Source: Microlunatus phosphovorus NM-1 (GTDB lineage Bacteria > Actinomycetota > Actinomycetes > Propionibacteriales > Propionibacteriaceae). From it: DNA of 64,000 nt. The notes below the pieces were generated by a model. The model was given only the letters and a program-made list of their open reading frames with translations, made no database searches and was not told the DNA's origin. The stretch lies in assembly GCF_000270245.1 (NCBI RefSeq), contig NC_015635.1:5456001-5520000 (forward strand), in the 5' to 3' direction. A program made the translations under genes and the position numbers. Shown here piece after piece: positions 36,699 through 45,520 of this stretch (position 1 is the stretch's first letter; every line of letters starts with the position of its first letter).

Positions 36699-36749
36699 CG
36701 ACCGACCTTTCCAGATGTCCGGGTGGCAGCGCGAATCCAGCCCGCCTGC

Positions 36750-39700
36750 TCAGAGCATCACCGTATCGGCATAGACCAGCCGCGGCACCAGCGACGGCCC
36801 GGCACCAACGGCGACCGGGTCACCGTCCAGCAGTTCATGCTCCTCGACCAGCACCCGCCAGGCCGTCTGTCGCGGATCGTCCTCCTCCTCGGCGATGGCC
36901 GTGCCCGGCCTACGCAGTCCAGGCCCATCGGGCAGTCGTACCGATCCGGTCCAGGTCGCCCGGTAGCCACCCGACTCGTCGACGCTGACCGCGAGCAGCA
37001 GGGCGGTGGTGACGGTCTGCCAGTCCAGATCACCGCAGCCGGCGGGCCGCGTCTGCACACTGGCCCGGACGGTCCGGGTCTGCTGCAGTCGCATCGCCCG
37101 GATGGCAGCGCCGCCGGTCGGACTGTCGGCACCCAGCTGGTCACCCGGCACCTCCGGCGGCACCTCGGGCAAGCGGAGCCAGTTGACCACCCCGGTCAGC
37201 GTCACCTGGATCTGCTCGGTGTCAGGTCGGCCCACCGTCAACGTCCGGGTCGGCAGCGGCTGCACCCAGCTGGTCAGCGCGACCGGCGACAGCGAGCAGC
37301 CGTCGATCGAGTGTGGCTGGTAGCGCGCCACCGCGAGCCGCAGGAACGGCCACAGCGCCGGGGTCTCCTGGACGGCGACGTCGACGAACCAGCGACCGGA
37401 GTCGGTGTCGTACTCCGGCTGATAGCCCAAGACTCGCACCGCCGGCCGACCACGTGCGTCGCGCAGCGGCACCGACTCCGCAACGGTGACCGGGCAGCCG
37501 GGCACTCGGCGCCAGCCGCGGTCCCGGCTGCCGAGCGGCCGGCCCCCCAGCGGCGGGCTGATGCCGAGCAGGCTGTCGGTGCCTCCATCGGCCAGATCCT
37601 GCAGCAGCTGGTCGAGCCCGAGCAGCGGTGGCACGGTGGGATCGTTGGTCGCGGCGCCGCGGCGCACGATCGGATCGGCGGCCCACAGACTGGTCGCCCC
37701 GTCCGGCGCCTGCTGAGCCTTGGGCTTCGATTCCATTCGGCCGGTGGCGGGATTGCGGACCCATTCGTTGGTGTCGAAGACGCAGACGCCGAGCAGCTCG
37801 CCGTCGCCGGAGGAGAACCAGGGCCGAGCCAGCCAGACCCGTACGCCGGAGCGTCGCACTTGCCGCCAGGCGAACGGGTCCCCCGGCTCCGGACCGGATT
37901 CCCACTGCAGCAGCGGCACCGCATCGAGCACCACCGGAGCCGCCGGGCGGGCCGAGGACAAGATGTCGAGCACCACCTGCTCACCGGCCGGCGGGTCGGT
38001 GGGAATCTGCTCGGGAGCGAAGTACTCCGCGTATCGAGTGCTCCCGGCCGGCAGGTAACTGACTCGCCGATAGTGGGTGTCGGCGAAGGTCTGCAGCGCC
38101 CGGTGGAAGCCGAGTCCACCGAGCTCGCCCGCGTACGGGCCGAACGGCTGGGCGTCGTAGAGAAAGAGCACGCCGGTACGCTGCCGCTCCCCGACTGCGG
38201 AGCGCACCACGACATCCGATTTGCTGACCTGCTCCGGACCGGCCGTGGTGGGATCGTCCACCTGTTCGGTCCAGGTCGCGGTGACCGTGAGCAGATCGGT
38301 GCTCGGTCCGTGCACGTCCACCAGTCCGCTGAGCAGCGCCACCCCACGGCCGGGCGGTCGTTGCGCCACGGCGAGCCCACGGAGCTGTGGCGGGATCACC
38401 GGCACTGGTACCGCATGCACCAGCCGCAGGTCGGTGGCCGGCGTCAGCCACCAGCACCAGCCCGAGGACGCGGCGCGGGTCAGCGCGACCATCGCGGACA
38501 GCTCGTCGGGGGTGTAGCCGTCGGCTGGGTCGACGACACTGGCCAGCTGCGAGCGCCACAGACCGAATCGGTCCAACTCTTGGGCGTCGACGCTGCTCGC
38601 CAGCGCCACCCGGACCTGCTCGCCGGGCGGCAGAGTGACGACCACCTCGTGTCCGTTGACCTGCGCGTCGAGCTCGGTTCCCGGCTGGACGACCAGCCGC
38701 AGCGGCTGTCGAGTCGGCCAGTCGCCGGGGTAGGGCACGCTGACCGCCTGCAGCGCACGCGGCTCCGGCAGTTGGTGCGGGTCTCCTGCTTCATAGAAGA
38801 CGAGTGAGACACCTTGGGCGTACGGGTCGGGCAGATAGGGCAACCGGAGGGCATCGGTGTCGTGGATGACGTATTGGCCCTCGCCGATCGGTCTCCCCCG
38901 GTCCTCGGCGATCTGCTCCAGCGTGGCCCGGTGCGGCGAACCGGTGTCCGCGCCCGGGCGGTCGACCAGCGCTATCCCCGGCTGCTCGACGCTCGCGCGG
39001 GCATCGGCCAGGCTGGGCGCCTGTTGATCGAGCAGCGTGCCGCGCTCGGCCAGCGCGACGGCATAGAGACGGCTGATCTCGGCGGCATCGCCGGTGCCGA
39101 TCGCGGTGTCGAACCGGCCGGCCGCCTCGGCCTCCAGCTGGGTCGACTTGGGTGGGGCGAGATGGCGCTCCGATGTCGACCTGGTGTCGGTGTCTGGTCC
39201 CTCGCCGATACCGGTCCGGACCACCAGCACTGCCGGCTGTTCACCAGTACCGAGCTGCTGACGCGGCACCAGGGCGGGCGGCGGCACCGGCTCCCACCGC
39301 AGATAGGGCCGCGGAGTGGTCACGGTCGGCCGGGCCAGAGCCCGGACCTCGTCGGACAGCGCGAGATCGTCCTGACGGGCCAGCTCGGCGAACTGGTCGG
39401 CATCGATCTTCAACTGAGGGCGTACCCGCGGCACGTCCCGCGCCGCGACCAGCACGTCGGTGGCCTCCCGCAGCCGGTCGAGCTGACGTTGCGCGCCGGA
39501 ACGTACCGGGCGGCCGGCAGCGGCCCGGTCCACCAGCGTCCGCAGAGTCTCGTCCAGCTCGGGCGAGCCGGTGAGCAGCTCTGCGGGCAGCCGCTGCCCG
39601 GGTCCCTCGGGCTGCTCGGCCCTCCGTAGCCGCTCGATCGCCAGGTCACGTTGGCGCGCGGCGACGCCCGAGCTGTCCCGTTGGCGGTACTGCTCCCGCA

Positions 39701-41624
39701 GTCGGTCTAGATGCTGCCGGGCGCGGTCGCGGGCCTCAGCGTCCAGCCGTGGATCCACCGGCAGCGGCCTGCGCGGAGCCGGTGGCACCGAGTTGCCGGC
39801 CAGGTCGACCGCCAGCACCCGGAAGCTGTACGAGGTCCCGTACCGCAGCCGCGGCAGTGAGCCCGGCTCCACCCTCGTCTGGGTCTGTGCACCGTCGATG
39901 GGCTGGTCGGGCGGGGTCTGCACCACCTGCTCGGTCTTGCCGTCGGGACCCGGTGGGGAGACGTGCACGATGGTCAGTCCAGGCCGCGGTGCCGAGAGGC
40001 TCCAACCGTCCCAACCGGCCACCACCTCGTGGACGTAGTAGTCCTCGGTCGGTGCATCGGGTACGCGGTTGAGCGCCGAGAGCTGCAGGAATCCGACATC
40101 GGGGTCGTCGTCCAGGATCGGCACGCCAGCCGGCTGACCGGTGACGGTGACCCGCCGCCGGTGCAGGCTGTGCCATTGCCGGGTCTTGTCGTCCCACACC
40201 TCGACCCGGATGCCGCGGACCAGGTCATCGAGCAGCAGTTCGCGGGTGCCATCGTCCGCTGCCAGAGTCTCGGCCTGCTGGACCCGGGCCCGCAGTTCAC
40301 CCGCCCGACCGGCCCGGGCAAGTGCGAAGCCGGTCGAGCGTACGGTGCCCGGCGCGGAGGTCGCGGGATCACCGTTGGCCTCACTGGCGTACTGGCGGAG
40401 CAGGTTGCGATGATACTGATCCAGCTTCAGACCGGAGGCGTCCGGATCCGCGTCCAGCACCACCCACTCCTGGTCGCCGAGCGGCAACGCACCTCCCACC
40501 CAGGCGTCGCTGGAGCGGGCGGCGAACACGGTGTCGCGGACCTCGACGGCGGTGCGGCGCGGCGGCAGCACCTCCAGATCCGGGTGGGTGGAGGTGATGG
40601 TCACGCTCACCCAGGTCGCCCCGGCGAGTGCCGCGCGGGCCTCGGCCGCATCCATCCCGTCGATGACGACATCGAGGGCAAGCCCGAGCCGACGCAACAG
40701 CGCGGGTGTGGCGCCGAAGGAGGCGAGCTTGGCGTGCACGTCGTGCTCGGGTCGGTCCGGCCGCGGTGGCGGGCTCGCATCGGGATCGAAGTCCGGCGGC
40801 GGATCGGGCTGTGGATGCTCGGGCCGTTCGTAGTAGCGGCGCATGGCGTGTGCATCGGCGATCAACTGAAGTGTGGGGTCGCGGAGGGGGCCACCGCCCA
40901 CCAGCCGATCCAGTTGCCGGGTGAGGCGGGCGTCGGCATCGCGATCGTCGAGCAGCTGCTGGATCGGTGACACCACGTCGGAGATCTCGCTGTCGTAGGG
41001 CGTCAGCGGCGGCAGTTCCCGGTCATGGCGCCGGTCGCTCTCCCAGTCGGGCGGCTCGGTGAGCGGACCCAGCGTGGCCAGCCCCTGCCGTACGCGTTGC
41101 GCGACCACCGTCGCAAACCGGCGGGCGCGTTGGTCGGCGCCCGCCAGCAGCACCCGTCCTGGCCCGTTCGGGTCGAGCTCGGCCAACCTGGTAAGCAGAT
41201 CCTCGGCGAGCGGGTTCCCGGCCAGCCGGGGCCGGGCGGCCGGCGCGGCCGTGATCGCGGCCAGCTGCAGATCGACGGCGTGGTCACTCATCCGGCTGGC
41301 CGGGTTGGTCCGCCAGGTCTTCTCTGACAGCTTCGGGCTTGGGAAGGGCGCGACCAGCGTGTGATCGGGCAGCACCGCCGCCCACGCTTCGGGAGTCGCG
41401 AGCGGCGAGACGATCCGCAACGGCAACTCGGCGGCCGGGTTCAGCGAGGTGGTCAGACTCAGCGAGCACCCGGCCAGGGTGGTGAGCCAATCGGCCGCGG
41501 CCGGGTAGTCCGACAGCTGCACACCGTCCCCGGCCAGCTTGTGCGTGAGGAACACCGTCAGCTGGAACGGGGCGTGGTCGGCGAGCGAGTACGGCAGCGC
41601 GGTCGCCAAAATCGTTGTGGTCAC
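36750..41624 (-). CDS. Giant uncharacterised protein (FN3-like segment), pair member 2
   Basis: I do not recognise this 1624-residue protein. It has no signal peptide or membrane helix. The N-terminus (VTTTILATALPYSLADHAPF) is followed by beta-rich sequence. An FN3-like strand pair lies near residues 594-612 (LRYGTSYSFRVLAVDLAGNS), and a charged helical coiled-coil-like region follows at about 628-670 (RQHLDRLREQYRQRD). The second half is beta-rich with a Trp-rich patch (ASSGWCWWLTPATDLRLVHA). Start GTG 41624 overlaps the upstream stop by four bases (GTGA). Codon use is like its neighbours. Structural, adhesin-like or enzyme roles are all possible. Confidence 0.8.
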   Translation of the reverse strand: MTTTILATALPYSLADHAPFQLTVFLTHKLAGDGVQLSDYPAAADWLTTLAGCSLSLTTSLNPAAELPLRIVSPLATPEAWAAVLPDHTLVAPFPSPKLSEKTWRTNPASRMSDHAVDLQLAAITAAPAARPRLAGNPLAEDLLTRLAELDPNGPGRVLLAGADQRARRFATVVAQRVRQGLATLGPLTEPPDWESDRRHDRELPPLTPYDSEISDVVSPIQQLLDDRDADARLTRQLDRLVGGGPLRDPTLQLIADAHAMRRYYERPEHPQPDPPPDFDPDASPPPRPDRPEHDVHAKLASFGATPALLRRLGLALDVVIDGMDAAEARAALAGATWVSVTITSTHPDLEVLPPRRTAVEVRDTVFAARSSDAWVGGALPLGDQEWVVLDADPDASGLKLDQYHRNLLRQYASEANGDPATSAPGTVRSTGFALARAGRAGELRARVQQAETLAADDGTRELLLDDLVRGIRVEVWDDKTRQWHSLHRRRVTVTGQPAGVPILDDDPDVGFLQLSALNRVPDAPTEDYYVHEVVAGWDGWSLSAPRPGLTIVHVSPPGPDGKTEQVVQTPPDQPIDGAQTQTRVEPGSLPRLRYGTSYSFRVLAVDLAGNSVPPAPRRPLPVDPRLDAEARDRARQHLDRLREQYRQRDSSGVAARQRDLAIERLRRAEQPEGPGQRLPAELLTGSPELDETLRTLVDRAAAGRPVRSGAQRQLDRLREATDVLVAARDVPRVRPQLKIDADQFAELARQDDLALSDEVRALARPTVTTPRPYLRWEPVPPPALVPRQQLGTGEQPAVLVVRTGIGEGPDTDTRSTSERHLAPPKSTQLEAEAAGRFDTAIGTGDAAEISRLYAVALAERGTLLDQQAPSLADARASVEQPGIALVDRPGADTGSPHRATLEQIAEDRGRPIGEGQYVIHDTDALRLPYLPDPYAQGVSLVFYEAGDPHQLPEPRALQAVSVPYPGDWPTRQPLRLVVQPGTELDAQVNGHEVVVTLPPGEQVRVALASSVDAQELDRFGLWRSQLASVVDPADGYTPDELSAMVALTRAASSGWCWWLTPATDLRLVHAVPVPVIPPQLRGLAVAQRPPGRGVALLSGLVDVHGPSTDLLTVTATWTEQVDDPTTAGPEQVSKSDVVVRSAVGERQRTGVLFLYDAQPFGPYAGELGGLGFHRALQTFADTHYRRVSYLPAGSTRYAEYFAPEQIPTDPPAGEQVVLDILSSARPAAPVVLDAVPLLQWESGPEPGDPFAWRQVRRSGVRVWLARPWFSSGDGELLGVCVFDTNEWVRNPATGRMESKPKAQQAPDGATSLWAADPIVRRGAATNDPTVPPLLGLDQLLQDLADGGTDSLLGISPPLGGRPLGSRDRGWRRVPGCPVTVAESVPLRDARGRPAVRVLGYQPEYDTDSGRWFVDVAVQETPALWPFLRLAVARYQPHSIDGCSLSPVALTSWVQPLPTRTLTVGRPDTEQIQVTLTGVVNWLRLPEVPPEVPGDQLGADSPTGGAAIRAMRLQQTRTVRASVQTRPAGCGDLDWQTVTTALLLAVSVDESGGYRATWTGSVRLPDGPGLRRPGTAIAEEEDDPRQTAWRVLVEEHELLDGDPVAVGAGPSLVPRLVYADTVML

Positions 41625-44600
41625 GGGGTCACCTCCGCGGGGACGGGAGCGAAGGCGTCGCAATAGAGCGCCCAGTCGGCGTTCAGGCCATCGGTCTCCG
41701 ACGGCGGCATGATCTCCTTCAGGGTCGGGTCACCCTTGGAGCCGGCCAGCTTCCGCTCCACCGAGATCTCCACCGAGGCGGAGAAGAACAGCACCTCGAC
41801 CTCGACCACCAAGGACGCCCGGCCGATCAGCTTGCCGGTCTCGAAGTGGTAGGTGAGCGAGAGCTCCAGCGTGATCGAGGCGCTGATCAACCCGAGCACG
41901 TCGACCTCACCGCGGATCCGGAAGTAGGCGGTCAGCAGCCCCTTGTCCGACTCCAGCCGCAGATAGACCCCGACCGCGATGGACACCGAGCCGGAGGCAA
42001 CGCCCAGGTCCACCGACAGGCACGCACAGGCCTCCAGGCCGAGTTCCAGCAGCACCAGACCCTTGGGTGAGGCCCGCAGCGCCAGCCAACCACCACCGCC
42101 GATGCACATGACGGTGAGCCGGAACGGCGAATCCTTGCTGCAGAAGTGGAATCCGACCGTGAGCGCATCGCCCAGGAACGGCACTCGGGCATCGGCACCG
42201 AGCGAGATGTTCTCCAGGCTGAACACGCCCACCGACACATTCGGTAGGGTCAAGTCGAAGCCCGCGGTCACGCCCCCGGGCGCCACGTCGACGTACGGCG
42301 GGTCGGCGAAGCCGTCGAACGGGATCAGCTCCCGCAGCCGGTCGACGAAGGAGAGCGGACCGAGGAAGCCGATGCCGCCGAAGACGACGTCGACCTCCGC
42401 CTTGCCGGCCGAGCCGGCGCGGAACCCGATCCGGCGGAACATCAGCTTCATCAGCCCGCCGGAACCGGTGCCGATCAGATTGAGGTCGAAGTCGACGATC
42501 TCGGCCAGGATGTCGACGGCCGGCGGCGCGCTCGCCGAGGCCCGGACCTCGACGTCGAGGTGCAGCGGGTGATCGCTGTGCGGGAAGAAGATGTTCGGTA
42601 CGCCGGACAGCCCCCACGGTTTGATCTTGGGTCGCCAGGACAGCTGGGCGGTGACCTGGCCGCCGGCGAGACCCTGCAGCAGCCGCGCCAACCCGGCGGC
42701 ATCCGAGGCGAGTTCGGTCAGCGTCTTGAGCGTTTGGACCGGCTTGCTGAGCGCGGAGCGGACCGCCGCCGGCACCCCGGGAAGTCCGATGGCGGTCAGC
42801 AGTGGGTCCAGATCGCCGGCCAAGGCGACGGCGGCCGCGCTGACGGCCTCGGGCTGGTCGGGCAGGTTGTGAACCGCGGCGATCAGCGCGTCGGCGTGCG
42901 ATGTCAGGGCCGTGGTCTGCGCGTCGAGGGCATCCTTGGCTTGCTGCGCGATGGCCTTCGCTCCGTCGTGGGCTCCGTCGGCGACCTCGGCGGCCAGCCG
43001 TTGCTGCGCCTCCTCGAGCGCCGCCTTCAACCGCTGGGCTTCGGTCAGCAGCTTGGTGACGGCGTCCAGCGCGTCGGAGACGAAGGCCGGTGCCTCGTCG
43101 AGCCCCGCGGCCTCGAGCAGTTCCAGCAGACTGAACAAGCCGAACAGCTTGGGCATCGCGGCGCCGAGGAAGGCGGTCGGATCGAAGGTGCCGGTCTGCA
43201 GCGGTGAGCCTCCGGTGCCCTTGTCCCCCACCGCGCCGAGGCCGCGCGAGACGGCGTTGACCACCAGATTCGGTGCCACGAAGCCGCCCGAGCGGTCGGA
43301 GCCGGAGGTGAAGTCCACGGCCGGCGGAGAACTGGCGAGGGACAAGATCAGCTCGCCGGCGTTCGGATGGCCCGGACCGGGCTTGGTATCGATCGTCCGG
43401 CTCGGCAGCCCGTGGTCGAGATAGGGCTTGGCCAGCACCAGATCGACCGCCGGCGCCTGCGGTGCGAGGTGTCGCATCGAGGGCAGCACCGCGCGCACCT
43501 GCTTCAGACGCGGCCGCGAGGTGATGTTCGCCGCATCCAGGTCGCCGGTGAAGATCAAGTGAGTGGTCTCCACGGCGGTGTCGCCGGCCTCGACCGGCGG
43601 GGCGACCGACAGGGTCTGACCGCGGCCCGGGATCTGCTGCACAGCCTCGTACAGCCCGGGCGCCTGGTCCCCGTTGATCAGCATCGGACGCCGCAGCCGC
43701 AAGCTCATTCCGGCCTGGACGAAGACCAGCGGCGCCGCCCAGGTCCGGACCTCCCCGGCCCGGTCCACCGTCGTCAGGGTGAAGGTGAAGGGCGTGCCGG
43801 CACGACGCGGGATGAAGGGGCTCTGGTCGCCGTCCTCGGCCGGCACGTCGAGGTCGGGGGTGACCAGCGGACTGAGGGTCACCTGGGCGAACGGATTGTC
43901 GCGATCGGCGCCGTACCCGCGGGTCGGTTGCCGCACGATGATGAACCAGCGCTGCCACAGATAGGCGATCGGCCGGTCGCGGTGTTTGATCTCCCGCTCG
44001 CTGATCTTGACCAGGTAGGCGCGGTGCCCGAACGGGAACAGGAAGCCCGGGTAGACGACTCGGACGTAGCCGTCGCGACCCATGAAGGCCTGATGCCGGT
44101 AGTCGACGATGCTGGCCGGCAGCTCCCAGGACTGCTTCCAGTCCAGCCAGGCGCCGAGGCTGGACAGCGCCAGGTTGCTGACCAGCAGCGGCTTGTCGGC
44201 GTTGGCGGCGAGACCGCCGTGGGTCTGCGCCACGATCGCGGTCCGATCGGAGGAGATCAGCGGCTGGGTGAAGCCCGGTGGCGGGCTGTCCTTGTCGGCG
44301 TTCCAGAGGCCACGGACGATGCGCTGCTTCTCGTCGGTGTCGTCCAGGGTGCCGTCGTCCCGGCGTACGGTCAGGTGGCTGCGCCACAACTCGGTCCGGT
44401 CCGGAGCCGGCCCGACCGGTGTCGGGGAGTGGCGGAAGGCGTTCTGGCTGCTGGGCGAGACGATCAGGTGGTACGGCGCCTCGATCGCGGTCTCGTCGGC
44501 GGCCGGTGGACGTGGGCCGCCGCTGCCACTGGATTCACCCGCGGGCGTGGCATTGGCCGCGACCCGGAGCCGGAGGGTGGGCAGCGCGGTCAGGATCGAG

Positions 44601-44917
44601 CCGAGGTCGTAGTCGATCCGGGTGCCGTCGGGGATCTCGTACGCCAACCGGGTCGGCCCGGCCGCGACGTGACCCGAGGGTCCGCTCGGCACAGGTGGCG
44701 GCGGGATGGCGCCGGCCTGCCAGACCTGCTCACCGAGATGCTGCGGCGGAAAGTGCACGATCAGCAGGGCATCCGGACCGGCCACCAGTTCGGCGCCATT
44801 CTCGGTCGGCTCGAGGTGACAGCCCGGCGCCTCCAGGCGGAGGTCGATCAGGTCGCGTACCCGCAGCAACCGAACATCGACCTGAGACTCTCTGTCACGT
44901 GGATCCGGCTCACCCAT
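41621..44917 (-). CDS. Giant uncharacterised protein, pair member 1
   Basis: This 1098-residue protein has no signal peptide or clear membrane helix. Its N-terminal half has VRVVYPGFLFPFGHRAYLVK and WQRWFIIVRQPTRGYGADRD near residues 285-335, then FTFTLTTVDRAGEVRTWAAP (about 374-394), a fibronectin-like edge. A helical stretch at about 619-692 (EAQRLKAALEEAQQRLAAEV) may be coiled coil. The C-terminal 350 residues alternate Gly and hydrophobic residues (FGGIGFLGPLSFVDRL, GVASGSVSIAVGVYLRLES), suggesting a long beta-sheet or beta-helix-like body. It is translationally coupled to the 1624-residue gene. No characterised family is recognised. Confidence 0.8.
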   Translation of the reverse strand: MGEPDPRDRESQVDVRLLRVRDLIDLRLEAPGCHLEPTENGAELVAGPDALLIVHFPPQHLGEQVWQAGAIPPPPVPSGPSGHVAAGPTRLAYEIPDGTRIDYDLGSILTALPTLRLRVAANATPAGESSGSGGPRPPAADETAIEAPYHLIVSPSSQNAFRHSPTPVGPAPDRTELWRSHLTVRRDDGTLDDTDEKQRIVRGLWNADKDSPPPGFTQPLISSDRTAIVAQTHGGLAANADKPLLVSNLALSSLGAWLDWKQSWELPASIVDYRHQAFMGRDGYVRVVYPGFLFPFGHRAYLVKISEREIKHRDRPIAYLWQRWFIIVRQPTRGYGADRDNPFAQVTLSPLVTPDLDVPAEDGDQSPFIPRRAGTPFTFTLTTVDRAGEVRTWAAPLVFVQAGMSLRLRRPMLINGDQAPGLYEAVQQIPGRGQTLSVAPPVEAGDTAVETTHLIFTGDLDAANITSRPRLKQVRAVLPSMRHLAPQAPAVDLVLAKPYLDHGLPSRTIDTKPGPGHPNAGELILSLASSPPAVDFTSGSDRSGGFVAPNLVVNAVSRGLGAVGDKGTGGSPLQTGTFDPTAFLGAAMPKLFGLFSLLELLEAAGLDEAPAFVSDALDAVTKLLTEAQRLKAALEEAQQRLAAEVADGAHDGAKAIAQQAKDALDAQTTALTSHADALIAAVHNLPDQPEAVSAAAVALAGDLDPLLTAIGLPGVPAAVRSALSKPVQTLKTLTELASDAAGLARLLQGLAGGQVTAQLSWRPKIKPWGLSGVPNIFFPHSDHPLHLDVEVRASASAPPAVDILAEIVDFDLNLIGTGSGGLMKLMFRRIGFRAGSAGKAEVDVVFGGIGFLGPLSFVDRLRELIPFDGFADPPYVDVAPGGVTAGFDLTLPNVSVGVFSLENISLGADARVPFLGDALTVGFHFCSKDSPFRLTVMCIGGGGWLALRASPKGLVLLELGLEACACLSVDLGVASGSVSIAVGVYLRLESDKGLLTAYFRIRGEVDVLGLISASITLELSLTYHFETGKLIGRASLVVEVEVLFFSASVEISVERKLAGSKGDPTLKEIMPPSETDGLNADWALYCDAFAPVPAEVTP

Positions 44918-45046: not shown

Positions 45047-45520
45047 TCAGGAATACAGCCAGCCGGTCTTGGCGTAGTAGTAGTTTCCGGCGGCCGTCTT
45101 GAGTCGGAAGGTGAAGGACTGCCGGGTGTCGCTGCGTACCGTGATCTTCTCTTCGAAGGCGTACTTGGTGCCGAGCGAGTAGTAGTCGAACCCGGTCTGA
45201 CAGTTCCACTTCTTCGTCTTCGTGACGTACTTGCAGCTCGCTCCGCTCAGCCAGACGGTCCGCTGGTATTCGCTGCCGACGTACAGGCAGTAGATGCCCC
45301 CTTCGGGGACCCGCCACACCTGCATCGTGGCGTAGTCGAGCACCTTGCCGTCGCGTTTGAAGGACACCGTCTTGACCCGGACCAGATCACCCCGAGCGCA
45401 GGTCTCCGTCGCGGTCGAGGCAGCGGCTGTGGTGGTCAGCGGGTTGATCGCGATCGTCGACGCCAGCAGCGCCAACACGGCAACGATCACGGCGACGGTG
45501 CGGCGGGTCCAGACGCGCAT
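45047..45520 (-). CDS. Small secreted protein
   Basis: The 157-residue protein has a Sec signal peptide (MRVWTRRTVAVIVAVLALLA ... TTAAAST). A beta-rich mature part has four cysteines (TCARGDL, IYCLYVG, SCKYV, NCQTGF) that could form two disulfides, and it ends in a Tyr-rich stretch (NYYYAKTGWLYS). It is not assigned to a known family. It lies 130 bases upstream of the giant pair on the same strand, so a shared role is possible but not shown. Confidence 0.65.
   Translation of the reverse strand: MRVWTRRTVAVIVAVLALLASTIAINPLTTTAAASTATETCARGDLVRVKTVSFKRDGKVLDYATMQVWRVPEGGIYCLYVGSEYQRTVWLSGASCKYVTKTKKWNCQTGFDYYSLGTKYAFEEKITVRSDTRQSFTFRLKTAAGNYYYAKTGWLYS

Follow-up and report, generated by a model that had tools for sequence, protein, structure and literature searches.

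Hydrogenase and dimethyl sulfoxide (DMSO) reductase belong to the hitchhiker complexes of the twin-arginine translocation (Tat) pathway. In two papers, complexes of this kind are described as carrying the signal on one of two partners (PMC4273604, PMC10924467), and PaoABC of Escherichia coli is one of them (PMC4273604). Here, a window of 64,000 nucleotides from the chromosome of Microlunatus phosphovorus NM-1 (contig NC_015635.1, positions 5,456,001 to 5,520,000) was analysed for two adjacent giant genes, A and B, which occupy positions 36,750 to 44,917 of the window on the reverse strand. The A-B family resembles the hitchhiker complexes in having a signal on one partner only, in the adjacency of the two genes and in the expectation of folding before export. 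However, A and B match no cofactor enzyme family, the two proteins reach about 3,300 and 1,900 residues, and most copies, that of the window included, have no signal. The reading preferred below is an obligate A-B complex that would be exported by Tat in some lineages, with B riding on A, and would be cytosolic in the window. The pairing of the genes and the pattern of the signals put its probability at about 0.5.

Two other groups of described proteins offer comparisons. Large lipid-handling proteins of the AsmA/TamB and vitellogenin type have amphipathic beta grooves, and A is likewise a large protein with predicted long alternating hydrophobic strands; it differs in having no Pfam match, no visible membrane anchor and a co-encoded partner. 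Tc and other toxin complexes, as generally understood, share with the pair very large co-encoded proteins, and hemopexin-type propeller genes lie near a few A-B loci. However, neither A nor B has a sequence match to toxin-complex subunits or related families in the Pfam, NCBIfam and PDB libraries.

A conserved and co-inherited gene pair

The two genes and their junction are placed in the window as follows.

41621..44917, reverse strand: gene A, first of the pair, ATG start, 1098 residues, without a signal peptide in the window copy
36750..41624, reverse strand: gene B, second of the pair, GTG start within the GTGA overlap, 1624 residues
41621..41624, reverse strand: GTGA overlap, formed by the start of B and the stop of A

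Both open reading frames (ORFs) have the lengths given in an initial annotation of the window, and the GTGA overlap it described is seen in the junction sequence, which reads ...CCCCGTGACC...; the overlap is consistent with translational coupling of A and B. A codon model with the 13 other genes of the window as its only training set gave per-codon scores of 0.397 for A and 0.255 for B (0.293-0.561 for the training genes). The G+C content at third codon positions (GC3) is 0.894 in A and 0.850 in B, and ranges from 0.809 to 0.925 in the 13 other genes. Comparison with a Cellulomonas relative showed differences at codon positions 1, 2 and 3 of 0.19, 0.13 and 0.42 for A and of 0.21, 0.17 and 0.47 for B. 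The codon use, the GC3 values and the excess of third-position differences show, at the level of sequence, that A and B are both translated genes under selection. The initial annotation had argued for selection from normal codon use; both genes are indeed coding, but the codon score of B lies below that of all 13 compared genes. An ORF of 694 residues antisense to B (36723-38807, forward strand) was rejected as non-coding with a codon score of 0.003, and an alternative TTG start of B at 41663, giving 1637 residues, was rejected because the relatives begin at the GTG position.

The order A then B on the same strand is found in all 46 loci holding both genes, a set that excludes L017, L065 and L074 (the last a duplicate of L011) and counts the near-identical L083 and L084 separately. 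The pair occurs in Actinomycetota and in Alpha- and Betaproteobacteria, and its presence is patchy. Among 396 Actinomycetota genomes, counted in two draws whose listed genomes coincide, A is found in 14 and B in 12, and all 12 genomes with B also have A. One of the two A-only genomes (G302) shows B beside A on direct reading, and the other (G364) has a weak A match (E 6e-4); L065, in genome G148, has weak matches for both genes. A scan of species genomes with A yielded nine loci, eight of them with both genes adjacent. At the order level, A is present in 16 of 342 genomes; inspection of 14 of these 16 genomes revealed a B match beside A in every case, B being broken in L074, cut by the contig end in L076 and located behind two WD40 genes in L025. 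Thirteen plasmid or megaplasmid records carry A, and all 13 carry B (nine by tblastn, the other four by profile); their hosts are Rhizobium, Cupriavidus, Diaphorobacter, Streptomyces, Sinorhizobium, Agrobacterium and Ruegeria. The largest pairs measure about 3,050 and 1,770 residues (Sinorhizobium meliloti) and about 3,310 and 1,900 residues (Ruegeria). Further relatives are present in G009, G010 and G047 (two pairs), and the window genome has a second A-B pair at 582.7-589.4 kb. Broken or partial forms also occur: B is split into three frames in L011, and G683 and G735 hold fragments of A. Solo genes, whose frequent occurrence the initial annotation had named as an argument against a system, are rare; in the ninth locus of the species scan, L017, a fragment of A stands with no B match within the locus sequence examined. 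By these counts from genome sequences, the A-B pair is a genuine two-gene module.

Comparison of the trees of the two proteins supports their co-inheritance. The trees are quick ones of 38 A and 38 B rows with some long branches. They omit L017, L065 and L074, together with L011, L046, L052, L055, L059, L063, L076 and L084, each excluded for a gene that is broken, split or truncated by the end of its contig, or as a near-duplicate of another locus. The A and B trees have 24 of 35 splits in common (at most 2 in 200 label shuffles), and the distance matrices correlate with r = 0.90 (no higher than 0.30 in 1000 shuffles). The constant order, the co-occurrence and the congruent trees give good support to the suggestion of a coupled pair with the potential to build a large complex.

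In the A tree, three Cellulomonas copies, one Arthrobacter copy and one Blastococcus copy form a group with the window row that has full support. The next row outside this group is from G674, a genome of the window's own family, and L011/L074, also of an own-family genome, has an A with 72-73% identity to that of the window. The copies of the window's own genus (G009 and G010) and the second pair of the window genome sit elsewhere in the tree. Since the window's group mixes several actinobacterial families and the own-genus copies lie elsewhere, horizontal transfer of the pair is suggested. G005, a genome of the same genus without an A match, retains the two genes that follow B in the window, with 78% and 67% identity, and other genes occupy the expected site of the pair. 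This arrangement fits either a gain in the window's lineage or a loss or rearrangement in G005.

Twin-arginine signals on A

Signals were scored by a strict Tat rule, set after hits had been seen, which combines the motif [ST]RRx[FLVI][LIVMA] with a following hydrophobic stretch. Under this rule a signal is present on A in 12 of the 46 loci, on B in none of the 46 and on 3 of 468 flanking genes. The enrichment on A has a Fisher p of 2e-11 against the flanking genes and of 2e-4 against B, values in which kinship is not corrected for. A loose form of the motif is found on A in 14 of 46 loci, on B in one of 46 and on 43 of the 468 flanking genes. Parsimony analysis of the Tat state (11 Tat rows of 38) gave three changes on the A tree and four on the B tree. 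The Pfam Tat model agrees weakly for L053 (E 0.0036, below the cut-off). On an S. meliloti plasmid, a tatA gene (L051:24670-24837) lies 50 bp downstream of B, beside the giant A of 3052 residues.

These signals on A of related loci were not foreseen in the initial annotation. Its statement that the window pair has no signal peptide agrees with the lack of a Tat motif and the low N-terminal hydropathy of the window copy, although relatives differ; the 22-row branch to which the window A belongs has no Tat signal. Set beside the hitchhiker complexes, the family has partners that are co-encoded and co-inherited (46 of 46 loci in order and 24 of 35 splits in common). A twin-arginine signal on exactly one partner is found in part of the family, but not in the window pair.

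Anatomy of the two proteins

AlphaFold2 (AF2) models of A were used for secondary structure alone, and their confidence is given as the predicted local distance difference test score (pLDDT). The following parts of the two genes were distinguished.

43754..43768, reverse strand: VDRAG motif of A, residues 384-388, from the sequence
42665..43084, reverse strand: helical, coiled-coil-like segment of A, residues 612-751, from AF2 helices, alignment gaps and conservation
41750..42655, reverse strand: module of long, strongly amphipathic beta-strands of A, residues 755-1056, from beta-moment and conservation, with strands from low-pLDDT AF2 models
39795..39809, reverse strand: VDLAG motif of B, residues 606-610, an FN3-like strand by eye, with D607 present in 35 of 38 rows
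39300..39767, reverse strand: variable insert of B, residues 620-775, from alignment gaps, with conservation of about 0.17-0.42
37245..39299, reverse strand: region of invariant residues of B, residues 776-1460, from conservation in 38 rows

The N-terminal half of A is of mixed character. The coiled-coil-like part that the initial annotation had claimed for A corresponds to one long helical stretch at about residues 612-751. It is poorly conserved (0.24-0.30) and missing from five distant rows of the A alignment (L022-L026); residues 621-740, with ten-residue pLDDT blocks of 59-84, form the only long part of the AF2 model above 50. Residues 851-1050 rank with the most conserved stretches of the protein (0.55-0.59), a level reached elsewhere only by residues 251-300. 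The long C-terminal region of alternating glycine and hydrophobic residues, also pointed out earlier, is real and extreme, with a beta-moment over 100 residues of 1.54 in the window A against a maximum of 1.36 in 534 control genes. The median for 48 A gene rows is 1.48, and 36 of the 48, the window row included, exceed the control maximum. The giant proteobacterial A proteins (L051, L052, L053 and L087) have weaker values of 1.15-1.26, and in L052 and L053 the strongest stretch does not lie in the C-terminus. A of L024, L026, L059, L063, L064 and L086 also stays below 1.36, and two pieces of A from broken genes reach 1.04 and 0.94. A check for a beta groove of the AsmA/TamB kind found long consecutive strands in both AF2 models, at a mean pLDDT of only 41 and 45.

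The insert of B at residues 620-775 is mostly absent from five distant rows of the B alignment. Beyond it, R776, H1070, D1123, R1262, R1267, E1276, D1317, D1415, R1434, Q1436, S1446 and R1460 are identical in all 38 rows; apart from Q1436 and S1446, all ten are charged if His is included. The VD(L/R)AG motif that had been noted in both proteins is present in each. However, it is unsupported as a sign of homology between A and B, which was rejected because a profile comparison aligns that stretch with a probability of 0.2%.

Searches for known families gave no convincing match for the window A and B in Pfam, NCBIfam, PHROGs, PADLOC or the PDB sequences, with no score above a curated cut-off and no clear E-value in the libraries without cut-offs. 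No solved-structure relative was found in the PDB by sequence or profile (best E 0.24), and profiles built from 22 sequences of A and 21 of B had no match there (best E 1.2, and none up to 10). The Pfam scan of the 22 A members returned an apolipoprotein-type match in two of them (best E 5e-5) and five weaker families. For B, the scan took in the window protein together with five distant proteins or fragments; a few distant A proteins were scanned as well, and none of the distant proteins could be assigned to a Pfam family. Three matches were rejected as weak: a PHROG baseplate hub (E 0.01) and ZorA of PADLOC (E 0.028, the best in that library), both on the coil of A, and an NCBIfam tail-tube family (E 0.002) that a single distant B hit with 17.6 bits, where the cut-off is 60. 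A phage origin was likewise rejected, as a search of 50,697 phage records with A only gave no match, and neither A nor B has relatives in IMG/VR, searched with both. The literature listings and the openings of abstracts name no such giant pair. The view of the pair as uncharacterised stands after this search for a characterised family, and no library match backs the filament, enzyme or toxin roles that had been proposed with it.

Neighbouring genes and the standing of the A-B complex

No third conserved gene was found among 35 compared loci (L074-L087 lie outside this comparison); the widest neighbour cluster spans five loci and includes two proteins with an annotation as ABC transporter ATPases. 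Neighbours of the hemopexin, WD40, zincin, patatin and phospholipase types recur, but they were picked as interesting by eye, without a background rate, and are a lead only. In L083 (5156-7854), two tandem hemopexin-repeat genes lie directly upstream, the second overlapping the start of A. The nearer one is also present in the near-duplicate L084, judged by its sequence start, and L061 (18198-19406) has one such gene downstream of B; the Pfam Hemopexin matches of the L083 and L061 proteins have E-values of 2.6e-26 to 3.3e-34. Zincin peptidases near pairs are matrixin-like in L025, which also has the WD40 genes, astacin-like in L086 and of the M35 type in L053.

The second pair of the window genome (L026:10677-17447, and L027; about 582-594 kb) lies between formate dehydrogenase-like parts and selD/selA/selB, named by eye, and the divergent copy L065 also has a selD-like gene of the same protein cluster. 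In two pairs with a Tat signal, B is followed immediately by the gene for a related secreted-looking protein (L022:19029-20000 and L024:15527-16771), which in L024 has no Pfam match. A small secreted-looking protein of 157 residues is encoded directly upstream of A in the window (45047-45520, reverse strand); it has no relative in the compared loci, and its signal region gives a Trp_oprn_chp match that stays below the threshold. On an Agrobacterium vitis plasmid (L052:25672-29176), genes annotated as dpdE and dpdF, presumably of a DNA modification system, stand just downstream of the giant pair.

It is most likely that A and B, as obligate partners, fold jointly to make one large complex. Between about a quarter and a third of related loci have a Tat signal on A and none on B, and there A would most likely carry folded B across the membrane by hitchhiker export; the window copy, in a branch without signals, most likely acts inside the cell. 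The conserved C-terminal amphipathic sheet of A could provide a hydrophobic surface for B, lipid or membrane, and B, with its invariant charged residues, could be the ligand-binding or catalytic partner.

Several points weigh against this reading. Every locus was detected through its similarity to A, and the 46 counted are those chosen for holding both genes. The background of the loose Tat motif is high (43 of 468 flanking genes, or 47 of 488 under a slightly different count), its sole hit on B, in L056, lies ~350 residues upstream of the B alignment, and even this rule detects no motif in 32 of the 46 A genes, that of the window included, which means that export is not a general feature. In lineages that export A, B might be left behind in the cytoplasm, and pairs of up to about 3,300 and 1,900 residues would be very large Tat cargo. 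On the structural side, 12 of 48 A rows, the giant ones included, do not exceed the control maximum of the beta-moment, the AF2 models are poor (mean pLDDT of 40.9 for A and 44.6 for A residues 754-1098), and the invariant charged residues of B may be structural.

Other explanations share part of this evidence. The extreme beta-amphipathicity of A could reflect an envelope or secreted assembly that handles lipid or acts on membranes, in which the beta module binds lipid or inserts, B is its partner and the enzymes, for example phospholipases, vary with the host. The apolipoprotein-type match in two of 22 A members, whose place in the protein was not located, patatin-like genes near B (L046, L047 and L077) and a zinc phospholipase C in L053 point the same way. 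This account is nonetheless unlikely: no neighbour cluster extends beyond five of the 35 compared loci, the AF2 models are too poor to reveal a barrel, groove or pore, and the window copy has no export signal. Patchy presence, plasmid location, nearest relatives across several families, and the presence of zincin peptidases and of propellers (hemopexin or WD40) in the vicinity of some copies would also fit a self-contained conflict or mobile accessory module, a secreted or delivered weapon or a defence, that spreads horizontally. Such a module is distinctly unlikely, as PADLOC, PHROG and NCBIfam hold no match of meaningful score, ZorA being the best of PADLOC, no small gene is common to the 35 compared loci, and relatives are lacking for A in the phage records and for both proteins in IMG/VR.

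Adjacency and co-inheritance do not require binding, and the invariant charged residues of B could belong to an enzyme, so A and B might be separate, merely co-transcribed enzymes of one pathway. This is improbable, since constant adjacency across large divergence and a Tat signal on one side only fit a complex better. That A and B are structural proteins from the baseplate or a tail-like part of a contractile particle, as the baseplate hub match on the helical segment of A and the tail-tube match on one distant B would suggest, is highly improbable. No sheath, tube or tail cluster was recognised in the gene lists inspected by eye, and the searches of the phage records with A and of IMG/VR with both proteins speak against it as well.

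The obligate complex, exported in some lineages, remains the preferred reading. A bolder extension of it, which we regard as a long shot, is that A and B represent an unnamed class of giant two-protein machine. This would be a mobile two-gene cassette with a cytosolic form and a form exported whole by Tat, whose amphipathic beta sheet would handle lipid or membrane outside the cytoplasm. For the family, ~8 kb of conserved sequence, unnamed in the searched libraries, gains a boundary and a testable hypothesis. If B does pass through Tat on A, the largest pairs would count as folded cargo of unusual size and would probe how big a load the pathway accepts. A module that occurs both with a signal and without one would also offer a natural example of a complex changing compartment.

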